Source of the DNA: Salsipaludibacter albus
GTDB taxonomy: Bacteria; Actinomycetota; Nitriliruptoria; Nitriliruptorales; Nitriliruptoraceae
NCBI RefSeq assembly: GCF_019798055.1
Contig: NZ_JAHOPH010000035.1
Span: 1 to 40,868 of the forward strand
Reading direction: 5' to 3'
Length of the DNA: 40,868 bases
The stretch's first letter is position 1. Every line of letters begins with the position of its first letter. The notes under the pieces are model-generated. The model worked only from the letters and a program-made list of their open reading frames with translations. It had not been told where the DNA came from and did not search any database. The position numbers and the translations under genes were made by a program. Positions 13,631 through 30,693 of the stretch are shown piece after piece.

Positions 13631-13705
13631 GATGGGCCGCATGCGGCCTGTCTGCCGATCCGACGGCCCGATCGGCCACCAGCCGTGCCCGAGACCACGT
13701 GGCGA

Positions 13706-13711
13706 TACCGT
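13706..13711 (+). promoter_or_regulatory. Candidate leaderless -10 box of the protease fusion gene
   Basis: TACCGT is followed by exactly 7 nt and then the GTG at 13719. This spacing places the transcription start on or next to the start codon. It supports GTG 13719 over the ATG at 13632, which would begin with an untypical 29-residue extension. Confidence 0.45.
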
Positions 13712-13718
13712 CGCGCGC

Positions 13719-15500
13719 GTGATTCCTCGTGACGTGACCCTCGCCCGGGTCGGCGGCGTGCCCGTCCGACTGCACGTGTCATGGCTCGTGGTGGCCGTCG
13801 CGGTCGTGTGGAGCCTGTCCACGACGATGGACCTCCCCGACGGCCCGGTCGTGCGCTGGACGGCGGCCGTTGCCGGCGCGATCGGCTTCTTCGCGTCCAT
13901 CCTGGCCCATGAGGTCGGACACGCGATCGCGGCGCGCCGTCGGGGACACCACGTCCACGCCGTGACCCTGTTCGTCTTCGGCGGCGTGACCGAGATCGAC
14001 GACGACGCCCGCCGGTGGCAGGACGAGTTCGCCATCGCGGCCGTGGGTCCGTGGGTGTCGCTGAACCTCGCCGCACTGCTCGGGCTGGTGACGGCCGGGC
14101 TGGACTGGTACCAGTTGCTGCCCACGGTGGCGACGGTCCTGGGCATGCTCGGCTGGCTCAACCTCGCGCTGGCGCTGTTCAACCTCGTGCCGGGCGCGCC
14201 GCTGGACGGCGGGCGGGTCCTGCGCGCGCTGCTGTGGCCGGTCCTTGGCAGCCGGCGTCGTGCCAGCCGGGTCGCCGCCGCGATGGGCATCCTGGTCGGG
14301 ATCGGGTTGTGGGCGCTCGCCGGGCTGTTCGCGGTGACCCAGCAGGGCGCCCTGCTGTCCGCGCTGTGGCTGACCCTCGTGGCCGCGTTCATCGTCGCGA
14401 TCGCGTTCGGTCAGTGGCGCGCTGCCCGCCCCGCCGCCGCGACCGCCGACACGTCCCGGGATCCGACCGCGGCCACGGGAGACGACGTCACCACCGATCG
14501 GGCCGCCGGCAGGGGCGTGGTCGTGGGGAGGTGGGTGCGCTCGGGGCTGTCGGTCGCGCTGGTGGTGCTCGCCCTGCTGGTCGTGCCGATGCCGCTGATC
14601 GAGGAGTCGCCGGGGCCGACCTTCGACGTCGGGCCCACGATCGAGCTGTCCGGGGACACCACGCCCCTGGACGGCGAGTTCGTGATGCTGACCGTGTTCG
14701 TCCGCCAGCCGGGGATCGCCGAGGTCGTGCGGGCCCGCTTCAGCGAGGGACGGACCCTGCGCCCGATCGGCGAGGTCGTCGCGCCCGACCAGGGCACCCG
14801 GGACTTCTTCTCCGAGCAGGGCGAGCTGTTCGCCACCTCGTTCGAGCAGGCGGCGGCCGCCGCGCTGGAGGCCGCTGGCGAGGACGTCGTCGTCGACGAG
14901 GACGTCGTGGTGGCACACGTGCTCCCGGACGGGCCGGCAGCCGACGTGCTGCGGGCCGGCGACGTCCTGGTCGAGGCGGACGGCAGCCCGGTGGGCAGCG
15001 CCGAGGACCTCGCCGCACGCACCGCCACGATGGAGGCCGGCACCAGCCTGCCGCTGGTCGTCCGGCGTGACGACCGCGAGGTCGACCTGGACGTCGTGGT
15101 GGGCGAGCTGCCCGGAGGTGAGCGGGTCGGCCTCGGCGTGACGGTCGGCATGCAGTTGGGTGACCTGGGCCTGCCCCGGGAGGTCACCCAGGGCGACCTG
15201 CGCATCGGTGGCCCCAGTGCCGGCCTCGTCACGGCCCTGACGATCTACGACCGGGTCGCCGAGGAGGACCTGTTGGCCGGTCGCACGATCGCGGTCACCG
15301 GCACGATGGGTGTCGACGGCACCGTCGGGGCGATCGGGGGCATCGACGAGAAGGTCGAGGGGGCGGTGGCCTCGGGGGCGGAGCTGCTGCTGGTCCCGCT
15401 GGCCCAAGTCGCGGAGTTCGAGGCAGCCAGTGACGGGCGCGTCCCGGTCATCGGCGTGGCCACCCTCGACGGCGCGATCAGCGCCCTGCGCGGCACCTGA
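13719..15500 (+). CDS. Fusion of site-2 metalloprotease and YlbL-type PDZ/Lon-like serine protease
   Basis: 593 residues. Residues 1-235 are an M50/S2P membrane protease: several helices, zinc motif HEVGH (H64, E65, H68) and the third ligand in NLVPGAPLDGGR (D163). A linker (236-270) leads to a second signal-anchor (about 274-291) and then a YlbL-like exported protease: PDZ domain (about 395-455; AHVLPDGPAADVLRAGDVL) and an S16 Lon-type domain with catalytic S500 (GGPSAGLVT) and K545 (GGIDEKVEGA). Both halves have intact catalytic residues. YlbL is normally a separate protein of about 340 residues, and S2P relatives of this kind usually carry CBS domains here instead. Likely role: regulated proteolysis at the membrane. 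Confidence 0.9.
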   Translation: MIPRDVTLARVGGVPVRLHVSWLVVAVAVVWSLSTTMDLPDGPVVRWTAAVAGAIGFFASILAHEVGHAIAARRRGHHVHAVTLFVFGGVTEIDDDARRWQDEFAIAAVGPWVSLNLAALLGLVTAGLDWYQLLPTVATVLGMLGWLNLALALFNLVPGAPLDGGRVLRALLWPVLGSRRRASRVAAAMGILVGIGLWALAGLFAVTQQGALLSALWLTLVAAFIVAIAFGQWRAARPAAATADTSRDPTAATGDDVTTDRAAGRGVVVGRWVRSGLSVALVVLALLVVPMPLIEESPGPTFDVGPTIELSGDTTPLDGEFVMLTVFVRQPGIAEVVRARFSEGRTLRPIGEVVAPDQGTRDFFSEQGELFATSFEQAAAAALEAAGEDVVVDEDVVVAHVLPDGPAADVLRAGDVLVEADGSPVGSAEDLAARTATMEAGTSLPLVVRRDDREVDLDVVVGELPGGERVGLGVTVGMQLGDLGLPREVTQGDLRIGGPSAGLVTALTIYDRVAEEDLLAGRTIAVTGTMGVDGTVGAIGGIDEKVEGAVASGAELLLVPLAQVAEFEAASDGRVPVIGVATLDGAISALRGT

Positions 15501-27212: not shown

Positions 27213-27248
27213 GGGGATCCCACGACGCATGTGGCCTCGTGGGACCCC
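27213..27248 (+). terminator. Rho-independent-type hairpin after aconitase
   Basis: GGGGATCCCACGA (27213-27225) pairs with TCGTGGGACCCC (27237-27248) over 12 bp with one bulged A and an 11-nt loop, starting 12 nt after the stop. The rest of the gap up to 27508 shows no gene or recognisable site. Confidence 0.6.
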
Positions 27249-27508
27249 TGCGCCACGGTGGTCGACGCCGGCGTGGTCCAGCAACCTCCCGCCACGTCCT
27301 CCACGGACCCGCCACGAACGCACACGGCGGCACCGCAGCGGGCAGCGTGACGCACCCGCCACGGGCGACCGGGCGTGGTCGTGCGCTGGGCGGGGAGCGT
27401 GGGCCGATCCGTCGCCAACCGTGGACCCTCGTCGACGTGCTGGGCACACTCGTCGACTCCCCGGGCCGGGCCGGCCGACGGGTGTCGAGCAGCGAGGAGC
27501 ACCCGACC

Positions 27509-28420
27509 GTGCCGTGGACCACGACCCTCGCCCAGGCCCTCGACGACGTCCGGGTGCACACCGAGGGCCTGCCCGAGCGCGGGTGGGAGCGCGACGGCCT
27601 CGCCACTGGCTTCGAGTCCCTGGACCGGGTGCTGACGGGGCTGCGGCCGGGCGAGGTGACCGTCGTGGCCGGACTGCCCGCGGTCGGGACGACGTCGTTC
27701 GCGGTCTCGATCGCGCGCCACGTGGTCGGACACGGTCGGCGTGACGTCGTGTGGGCGTCGGTGGACGAGGACGTCCCCGCCGTGGCACGCAACTTCCTGT
27801 CCGCCCAGGCCCTGGTCACCACGGAGCAGCTCCGCCTCGGGGCACTGTCGGCCACCGAGCGCGCCCGGTGCGAGGCGGCCATCGCCCACCTGACCCGCTC
27901 GAGCCGGCCCGGCCAGCCCGCGCTGCACGGGTTCGAGGCAGACTGCAACCCGCTCGACATCGTGGCCGGGCGAGACACCACCACCGCCGACATCGCCCGG
28001 GCCGTCGAGGCGCTGCCCGGCACGGACCTGCTGGTGGTGGACGACCTCAAGCGGCTGCTCTACAACGACCACGCCGCGCACCCCGACCGGGACCTCGACC
28101 ACGTCGACGCCCTGGTCATGCGCGAGCTCGGGCGGCTGGCCACCACGCACCGGCTGCACGTGCTGGCGACCGCCCGGCTGTACCGCACCCACCAGCGGTC
28201 GGGCGAGCCCGGACCCAACGACTTCCGCCCGTTCTCGGCGTTCCACGACCAGGCCGACAACGTCGTGGGGGTGTGGCGCGACGACCTGCGCGACGACGAC
28301 AGCCCCGAGTGCGGCATCATGCGCGTGGGCCTGCTCCGCAGCCCCGGTGCCGGCCGCTGGGAGGGCCGCCTGGCCCACGTGCTGGACCGCCGGCTGGTCG
28401 CGAACCTCGCCCGGGGCTGA
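27509..28420 (+). CDS. DnaB-helicase-C-like RecA-fold protein with altered P-loop
   Basis: 303 residues. The segment GLATGFESLDRVLTGLRPGE (residues 30-49) followed by VTVVAGLPAVGTTSFAVSIA matches the start of the DnaB/KaiC-type RecA domain. The Walker A position reads GLPAVGTT (55-62), with Thr in place of the invariant Lys. A Walker B-like DLLVVDDLKRL, a later HVLATARL strand and an FRPFSAFHDQADNVV segment also follow DnaB. The N-terminal DnaB domain is absent, so it is not the replicative helicase, and normal ATP hydrolysis is doubtful. The GTG at 27509 has GAGGAG 9 nt upstream. It is first in a three-gene plus-strand group. Role unknown. Confidence 0.75.
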   Translation: MPWTTTLAQALDDVRVHTEGLPERGWERDGLATGFESLDRVLTGLRPGEVTVVAGLPAVGTTSFAVSIARHVVGHGRRDVVWASVDEDVPAVARNFLSAQALVTTEQLRLGALSATERARCEAAIAHLTRSSRPGQPALHGFEADCNPLDIVAGRDTTTADIARAVEALPGTDLLVVDDLKRLLYNDHAAHPDRDLDHVDALVMRELGRLATTHRLHVLATARLYRTHQRSGEPGPNDFRPFSAFHDQADNVVGVWRDDLRDDDSPECGIMRVGLLRSPGAGRWEGRLAHVLDRRLVANLARG

Positions 28421-28468: not shown

Positions 28469-29701
28469 ATGCAGGGACCGTCCACCACCGACACGGCACG
28501 CCTCCTCGACCTGCTCGGGGACGCCGATGCCGACGTGCGCCTGCAGGCGGTCCTCGACCTGGGGCAGGCACGGCACGGACCGGCCGCCCCCGCACTGGTC
28601 GAGCGCTTCGCCCGGGAGTGGGACTTCCAGGTCCGCGAGGCCCTGACCTGGGCGACCCTGCGGATGGACGACACTGCCCTGTCGATGGTTCGCACCGCGC
28701 TGGGCGATCCCCGGTGGCCAGCCCGTCTCCAGGCCACCCACACCCTCAGCAAGGTCGGCGCCCCCAAGGACACCGTTCGACTGCTGCCGGTCGTCGACGA
28801 CCCGGTGGACTGCGTCGCCGCACGGGCGTACTGGGCCGTGGCGCAGTGCGGTGACCCGGTCGCGGTCCCGGCACTGGTGGACCAGCTCGCGCGGGGCACG
28901 TCCGAGCATCGCAACAGCCTGCTGGTCGCCCTCGACGCGTTCGGCGGGGAGGCCGTCCCGGCGCTGGTCACGGCCCTGCGACATGCCCCGGCAGGCGGGG
29001 CGCGGCGTCATGCCGCCGACGTCCTGGCGTTCATGGGTGCGCCCGTGGCCGACCCGGCCGAGCCGGCCCTGGTGGCTGCGCTCGACGATCCCGACGAGTG
29101 GGTCCGGATCGCGGCGCTCAACGGCCTCGGCCAGCTGCGGACCACGACCGCCTGGGAGACCGTGGAGTCCCGGACCGGGTCGGACGGCCGCCCCGGCCTG
29201 CTGGCCCGTCGGCTGGTGGAGCGCCGACCGCCCGACCGCGTGCTGGCCCGTCACCGGGTGCGCACGGACCCACGGGTCGACGACGCGGTCGGTCCGCCCC
29301 CGACCGCCGACCCGGGACGCTGGCCGGAACCCGACCACGACCTGGTCACCCACTCCGGTGGCCCGCTGGCCGACCGGCTCGGCCCCATGCTGGCCCTCCA
29401 GGTCGCGGTCGCCCGCCCGGCGTACCTGTCCCGTGCCGAGGTCCCCGTCGCCGTCCTGGGGGCGGTCCACGACGACGCCCACCGCGCGGCGATCGACGAC
29501 GGGCGTGACGCCGTCGCCGCGGGTCGCGTCGCCGCCGGAGCCGTGGAGCAGTACGTCCACGACCACGTCTTCGAGGAACAGATGTCCGTGGCAGACCCGG
29601 GCAAGCTCGTGAAGGACCTGCTCCGGGGCACGGAGGTCGCGATCCTCGACTTCGTCCGGGCACCGGCCCCACGCACTCCCCCCGGGCCCACGACGTGGTG
29701 A
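28469..29701 (+). CDS. HEAT-repeat protein fused to an EF-Ts-like C-terminal domain
   Basis: 410 residues. Residues 1-225 are HEAT/PBS-lyase-type repeats: LLGDADADVRLQAVLDLG, DDPVDCVAARAYWAVAQCGD, LDDPDEWVRIAALNGLGQL and others. After a polar linker (about 230-300), residues 306-398 resemble the dimerisation/C-terminal part of elongation factor Ts: MLALQVAVARPAYLSRAEVP corresponds to the EF-Ts stretch ending PxYLxREdVP, and SVADPGKLVKDLL with EVAILDFVR corresponds to the EF-Ts end (xxDPxKtVxxLL...EVxxFvRf). The EF-Ts N-terminal UBA domain and core are missing. I know of no such fusion. It may bind EF-Tu or a similar partner. The stop overlaps the next gene. Confidence 0.75.
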   Translation: MQGPSTTDTARLLDLLGDADADVRLQAVLDLGQARHGPAAPALVERFAREWDFQVREALTWATLRMDDTALSMVRTALGDPRWPARLQATHTLSKVGAPKDTVRLLPVVDDPVDCVAARAYWAVAQCGDPVAVPALVDQLARGTSEHRNSLLVALDAFGGEAVPALVTALRHAPAGGARRHAADVLAFMGAPVADPAEPALVAALDDPDEWVRIAALNGLGQLRTTTAWETVESRTGSDGRPGLLARRLVERRPPDRVLARHRVRTDPRVDDAVGPPPTADPGRWPEPDHDLVTHSGGPLADRLGPMLALQVAVARPAYLSRAEVPVAVLGAVHDDAHRAAIDDGRDAVAAGRVAAGAVEQYVHDHVFEEQMSVADPGKLVKDLLRGTEVAILDFVRAPAPRTPPGPTTW

Positions 29702-30693
29702 CGCCGGTGCCGACGGGCCGGACCACGCTGCTGACAGCCGGACTCACCGGCCTGGGCGGCCTGGGCTGGGCGACGAGCCGAGCGCGGGGCCGCACCCGGC
29801 GCACCGCGGCCGACATCGCCGAACTCGACCCGCAGACGCAGGCCCGGGAGATCGTCTGGCTGCTGTCGACCCACGAGTTCCCATGGGACCTCGAGACGGC
29901 GCTGTCGTTCGCCCTGTTCCGGACCTACGCGTCGCCCGACATCGCGGTCGTGCTGGACGCCACCGGCGAGTTCGGGCACCGGGCCAGAAAGCGCTACGAC
30001 GACACCGAGCTGGTCATGGCGTGGATGGCACGCGACGGCCTGGACGGCCGGCTCGGACGCACTGCCCTGCGACGGATGAACGCGATGCACGCCGCGTTCG
30101 AGCTCGACCCGGTCGACCTGCACTACGTGCTGACGACGTTCATCTGCGAGCCGCTGCGGTGGATCGAGCGCTGGGGCTGGCGACCGCTGACCGATGCCGA
30201 GGTGGCCGCGAGCCTGCGCTGGTACCTGGACCTGGGACGTCACATGGGCCTGCGTGACCTGTCCGAGGACCTCGCCGACCATGATGCGTTCAACCGGGCC
30301 TACGAGGCCGAGCGCTTCCGGTACCACCCCGCGAACCGCCGGGTCGCCCAGGCCTCGGTGGACATGTTCCTGCAGGCGCACCTTCCCGCGCCCGTGCACC
30401 CTGCAGGCGAGGTGGCGATCCGCGCCCTGCTGGATCCGCCGCTGCTGGCCGCGTTCGGGTGGGAGCCGGCCCCGCCGGCCGTCGTGACCGCGGTCCACGC
30501 GGCCCTGCGTGCACGAGCGTGGGTGCAGCGCACCCTCGTGCCGGAGCGGCGAACGCCCCACGACTTGACCCGGGTCGATCGGCCGACCTACCCCACCGGC
30601 CACCGGGTGGAGCAGCTCGGCACGTTCCCGACCGAGGCGGACCGTGCCCGGGTGGCCTCCGCCCGCGAGGACCTCGACGGCCACCGCACCTGA
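29698..30693 (+). CDS. DUF2236/MpaB-type oxygenase-like protein
   Basis: 331 residues. All-helical DUF2236 pattern: HEFPWDLETALSFALFRTYA, GEFGHRARKRYDDTELV, RRMNAMHAAFELD, YVLTTFICEPLRWIERWGWR, and FRYHPANRRVA near 200-210. The family includes the rubber oxygenase Lcp and fungal MpaB; His residues bind heme in Lcp, but the ligand here cannot be told. An N-terminal Gly/Leu-rich stretch (about 10-25) may be a weak membrane segment. The GTG at 29698 overlaps the stop of the HEAT gene as GTGA; a GTG at 29695 in the same frame is equally possible. Coupling to the previous gene suggests shared expression. Confidence 0.8.
   Translation: MTPVPTGRTTLLTAGLTGLGGLGWATSRARGRTRRTAADIAELDPQTQAREIVWLLSTHEFPWDLETALSFALFRTYASPDIAVVLDATGEFGHRARKRYDDTELVMAWMARDGLDGRLGRTALRRMNAMHAAFELDPVDLHYVLTTFICEPLRWIERWGWRPLTDAEVAASLRWYLDLGRHMGLRDLSEDLADHDAFNRAYEAERFRYHPANRRVAQASVDMFLQAHLPAPVHPAGEVAIRALLDPPLLAAFGWEPAPPAVVTAVHAALRARAWVQRTLVPERRTPHDLTRVDRPTYPTGHRVEQLGTFPTEADRARVASAREDLDGHRT

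Follow-up and report, generated by a model that had tools for sequence, protein, structure and literature searches.

The closest known counterparts of the protein analyzed here are an actinobacterial EF-Ts, a truncated phage EF-Ts and two groups of MerR-associated HEAT proteins described below. The EF-Ts of Mycobacterium tuberculosis (the long actinobacterial type, PDB 7VMX) contacts EF-Tu through R13, K24, D77, N82, H149, R151 and D154, of which R13, N82 and H149 are indispensable, and its subdomain C strands span residues 144-149, 157-166 and 259-267 (PMC9529903). Its complex with EF-Tu is 1:1 and without EF-Ts pairing, whereas dimeric EF-Tu-EF-Ts complexes are noted for E. coli and T. thermophilus (PMC9529903). 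Few EF-Ts pieces encoded outside tsf have been described; one is gp247 of phage Colossus, a truncated EF-Ts of 98 aa (PMC3556154), which resembles the present protein in being an EF-Ts piece outside tsf but what it retains is the opposite piece, subdomain N with F81, without the dimerisation domain or HEAT repeats. In a 40,868-nt stretch of DNA from Salsipaludibacter albus (hereafter the window, meaning the whole stretch analyzed), a single gene joins a HEAT scaffold to the last third of EF-Ts, and this fusion is real.

A gene joining HEAT repeats to the C-terminal part of EF-Ts

The 410-aa open reading frame (ORF) that carries the fusion was verified for frame, coordinates and both domains, and is composed as follows (positions are those of the window).

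28469..29701, + strand: HEAT-EF-Ts(C) fusion gene, 410 aa (ORF and translation; full-length relatives in three genomes)
28505..29188, + strand: HEAT-repeat region, about residues 13-240 (Pfam HEAT_2, HEAT_PBS and HEAT)
29189..29320, + strand: variable linker, residues 241-284
29321..29365, + strand: family-specific motif WPxPDxxLVTxxGGP, residues 285-299, directly N-terminal to the EF-Ts-like domain (alignment of four members)
29375..29659, + strand: EF-Ts C-terminal-part domain, residues 303-397 (Pfam EF_TS; profile matches 7vmx, 1tfe, 1aip and 1efu)

An earlier note on this DNA had read the gene as a HEAT-repeat protein with an EF-Ts-like C-terminal domain, and both halves are borne out. The HEAT region is recognized by HEAT_2 (E 4.2e-22, in four stretches), HEAT_PBS (6.2e-8) and HEAT (2.6e-6), and G+C by codon position is coding-like in the HEAT, linker and EF-Ts parts. 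Residues 303-397 align with positions 105-199 of the 204 in Pfam EF_TS (E 7.3e-10; its 39.2 bits exceed the cut-off of 27). When the single domain was searched against solved structures it retrieved EF-Ts chains only, the best being M. tuberculosis EF-Ts (7vmx, 3e-7), and a profile of the domain from four members again placed 7vmx on top (E 1.4e-14), followed by T. thermophilus and E. coli EF-Ts, with all EF-Ts structures ahead of the first unrelated chain (E 0.19). Profile-profile comparison of the domain with EF-Ts (hhalign) gave 99.3%. An EF-Ts profile constructed for this analysis gave the window protein 41.6 bits (42-58 bits over all four fusion proteins), as compared with a best score of 7.2 bits among 1000 shuffles of the window C-terminus. 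The full-length tsf model TIGR00116 gave 22.7 bits for the window fusion, far under its cut-off of 104.05, and 28.4-42.7 bits for the relatives. AlphaFold models computed without an alignment, whose confidence is too low for a verdict on the fold (pLDDT 45 for the whole window protein, 46 for residues 285-402 alone), place helices at the EF-Ts helix and hairpin positions. The fusion is a new domain architecture built from known parts; a literature search found no paper describing a HEAT-EF-Ts fusion.

What the EF-Ts tail keeps and lacks

By profile alignment, the retained segment corresponds to residues 173-267 of M. tuberculosis EF-Ts (numbering verified on a 271-aa relative); it takes in the helical hairpin and the last strand region together with the C-terminal part of core subdomain C, and has the same short loop preceding the last strand. 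Unlike M. tuberculosis EF-Ts, the fusion has no UBA domain and no subdomain N, in whose place the HEAT repeats stand; of the subdomain C strands, the first two (144-149 and 157-166) are either missing or degenerate, and no EF_TS match was found before profile position 104 in the fusion proteins. The TDFV motif, which contacts EF-Tu domain I for GDP release, is absent from all four fusion proteins, and the seven M. tuberculosis contact residues all fall before the retained segment, R13 and K24 being contacts of the N-terminal UBA-like domain and H149, R151 and D154 contacts of subdomain C. The UBA domain is therefore missing, as the earlier note had it, while its view that the core is missing as well does not hold for the C-terminal part of subdomain C and the hairpin. 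Its suggestion of EF-Ts mimicry, taken as nucleotide exchange, is not supported: since the UBA domain, TDFV and the seven contacts lie outside the retained stretch, exchange on EF-Tu in the manner of EF-Ts appears very unlikely from sequence. The interpretation in the note is partly supported, the architecture being right; its mention of stress finds no support. With the parts that EF-Ts uses on EF-Tu missing, the tail is probably a binding or pairing module.

Distribution, constraint and origin

Among 66 genomes of the host class searched for EF_TS, four (the window's and G057, G058 and G059) have, besides a normal EF-Ts, a second and weaker match restricted to positions 104-203; the host carries a separate intact tsf. 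The survey for the same fusion proposed in the earlier note returned full-length copies in the latter three genomes, probably Euzebya, whose proteins of 399-405 aa are 55-57% identical to that of the window; no fusion was found in G060, which belongs to the same genus. No other copy occurs in the 35 genomes of the window's family (which include its own and the congener G029, 87% complete), and no further full fusion was detected in 396 genomes of the phylum with a full-length profile (at most four candidates scored per genome), nor in two small classes of the phylum. Neither IMG/VR, queried with the protein, its family alignment and EF-Ts, nor PHROGs gave a match, and peptide patterns run on GTDB contigs retrieved no close relative, just a distant HEAT protein of Verrucomicrobia. 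A separate candidate, G015:C37 (L034, 3-1529), is a single frame that begins permease-like, continues with an N-terminal EF_TS fragment with SETDFVA and ends TssC-like; it was set aside as a probable chimera.

Across the fusion lineages, identity is 58-65% in the HEAT part and 55-64% in the EF-Ts part, both more conserved than the linker (37-49%), which indicates that both parts are under constraint. For the window protein against the other lineage alone, the values are 58-61% (HEAT), 55-60% (EF-Ts) and 37-49% (linker). Within the motif WPxPDxxLVTxxGGP, the residues W, P, P, D, L, V, T, G, G and P are invariant in 4/4 fusion members. In the phylogeny, the four EF-Ts pieces group together (support 1.0) as a long-stemmed clade that falls outside the short-type EF-Ts of the host class itself, their exact placement being weak because of the small number of positions (about 95). 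The short loop before the last strand is common to the fusion pieces and the long EF-Ts of other actinobacteria. A single fusion event, with either loss or transfer after it, would account for this picture, and the data favour neither of the two.

HEAT relatives beside and within MerR regulators

A MerR helix signature is adjacent or fused at 21 of the 23 loci of the HEAT family, as opposed to 0 of 18 tsf control loci, whose length is about that of the 13 chromosomal HEAT loci (12 of the 13 being MerR-positive); one of the two MerR-negative HEAT loci encodes the distant Verrucomicrobia protein. A tblastn search of a plasmid collection recovered HEAT relatives at 1e-19 and 1e-29. Those of Tsukamurella and Streptomyces are small proteins encoded directly before a MerR regulator with HEAT repeats of its own, 38-41% identical to the HEAT half of the fusion over 163-188 residues; they are without the EF-Ts piece, whereas the fusion genes are without a MerR signature nearby. 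On Deinococcus plasmids the relative is the C-terminal part of a single MerR-TipAS-HEAT polypeptide (a second copy was also found), 39-44% identical to the fusion's HEAT half over about 209-248 residues and similar at E 8e-43 in a small set comparison; these regulators carry an N-terminal DNA-binding domain, whereas the fusion instead carries a C-terminal EF-Ts piece. Since MerR is adjacent or fused at most loci of its relatives, the HEAT half stems from a regulatory setting, and in the host class it is found with the EF-Ts piece in place of the MerR partner.

None of the four fusion genes, that of the window included, has a MerR signature in its vicinity (0/4 loci), so that a regulatory role for the fusion would be extrapolated from its HEAT relatives. 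In G059, a gene of the HTH_17/excisionase type ends 5 bp upstream of the fusion gene. The phage collection yielded a single HEAT relative, whose gene lies in divergent orientation to a MerR gene on a gut contig without annotation; the contig is probably bacterial, as ligA- and dapA-like genes, read from translations, are also present.

As an observation in its own right, small HEAT proteins and MerR-HEAT regulators are widely encoded as pairs, in Streptomyces, Tsukamurella and other actinobacteria, and are fused in Deinococcus (loci L037, L038, L043-L055, L070-L074 and L086); a literature search found no paper on this arrangement.

Possible roles of the fusion protein

The reading that we tentatively favour, with slightly less than even confidence, is that of a single-origin HEAT adaptor from a regulatory family whose tail is an exchange-deficient EF-Ts pairing or docking module. 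The N-terminal 240 residues would be the adaptor, derived from a family that works beside MerR-type regulators elsewhere, and the C-terminal 110 residues a truncated and fast-diverged EF-Ts piece that has presumably lost the nucleotide-exchange parts. This piece may act through self-dimerisation, or through binding of a partner without exchange, and could thereby position the HEAT scaffold in a regulatory complex. Because the piece is conserved even though the exchange motif and known EF-Tu contacts are gone, it also offers a clean natural test of what the helical hairpin of EF-Ts is capable of by itself. Docking on EF-Tu or EF-Ts, judged from sequence, is possible but unsupported by known contacts; if the tail still finds either of them, translation would be tied to a regulator.

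A more specific proposal, which we regard as unlikely, is that the EF-Ts piece docks without exchange on EF-Tu, at the side of domain III, so that the HEAT scaffold is recruited to EF-Tu or the ribosome and the state of translation is coupled to a regulator. The fusion segment VLLEQxSVxDPGxxVKDLL is strongly EF-Ts-like, and V234-M235 of E. coli EF-Ts, which have reportedly been studied as EF-Tu contacts, fall within this stretch; however, the seven contacts reported for M. tuberculosis EF-Ts are all outside the retained segment, and charged EF-Ts positions, such as those of the ERxI and EGKPE stretches, are lost in the fusion.

Alternatively, the fusion might heterodimerise with the host EF-Ts, or compete against it, via the helical hairpin, and so tune translation, which seems to us improbable. 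Within the retained piece lies the region through which two EF-Ts molecules pair in E. coli and T. thermophilus, and the host has its separate tsf as a possible partner. Yet pairing of this kind is absent from the 1:1 complex of M. tuberculosis (PMC9529903), and the host's own short-type EF-Ts is not the nearest to the fused piece in the phylogeny.

The EF-Ts piece may also be a structural relic or folding cap without a binding role, the HEAT scaffold alone being functional. The HEAT relatives that exist elsewhere without such a piece are in keeping with this, but the chance that it is so appears small, as conservation of the piece across a deep split is close to that of the HEAT part, and a family-specific motif is kept ahead of it. 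Distinctly improbable, in our estimate, is that an EF-Ts-derived module without exchange reads the occupancy of EF-Tu or EF-Ts and relays it via the HEAT scaffold to a transcription regulator; if true, such an occupancy-reading adaptor would couple gene control to translation elongation directly at the protein level. Finally, a chance match, assembly chimera or frameshift product, to which the absence of the fusion from the other 34 family genomes searched might point, is refuted by the three relatives with the same fusion in independent assemblies, together with EF-Ts scores far above those of shuffles, and retains a negligible probability.

Genomic neighbourhood

The genes on either side of the fusion gene are the following.

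27239..28420, + strand: upstream neighbour, a DnaB_C-like ATPase without a full DnaB (Pfam DnaB_C 1.1e-20; 48 bp gap to the fusion gene)
29695..30693, + strand: downstream neighbour, 332 aa, overlapping the stop codon of the fusion gene (ORF)

The true start of the upstream gene is probably further in, and the downstream gene has no Pfam or NCBIfam match. Gene neighbourhood differs among the fusion loci, and neither window neighbour adjoins the fusion in the three other genomes; in G059, a putative immunity protein (Imm5_like; L031:3285-3797) is encoded two genes upstream of the fusion. Elsewhere in the window, a 621-aa ORF at 13632-15497 (+) combines an M50 (site-2-like) membrane metalloprotease, a SepM/YlbL-like PDZ domain and a Lon_C serine protease, i.e., two proteases in one chain.
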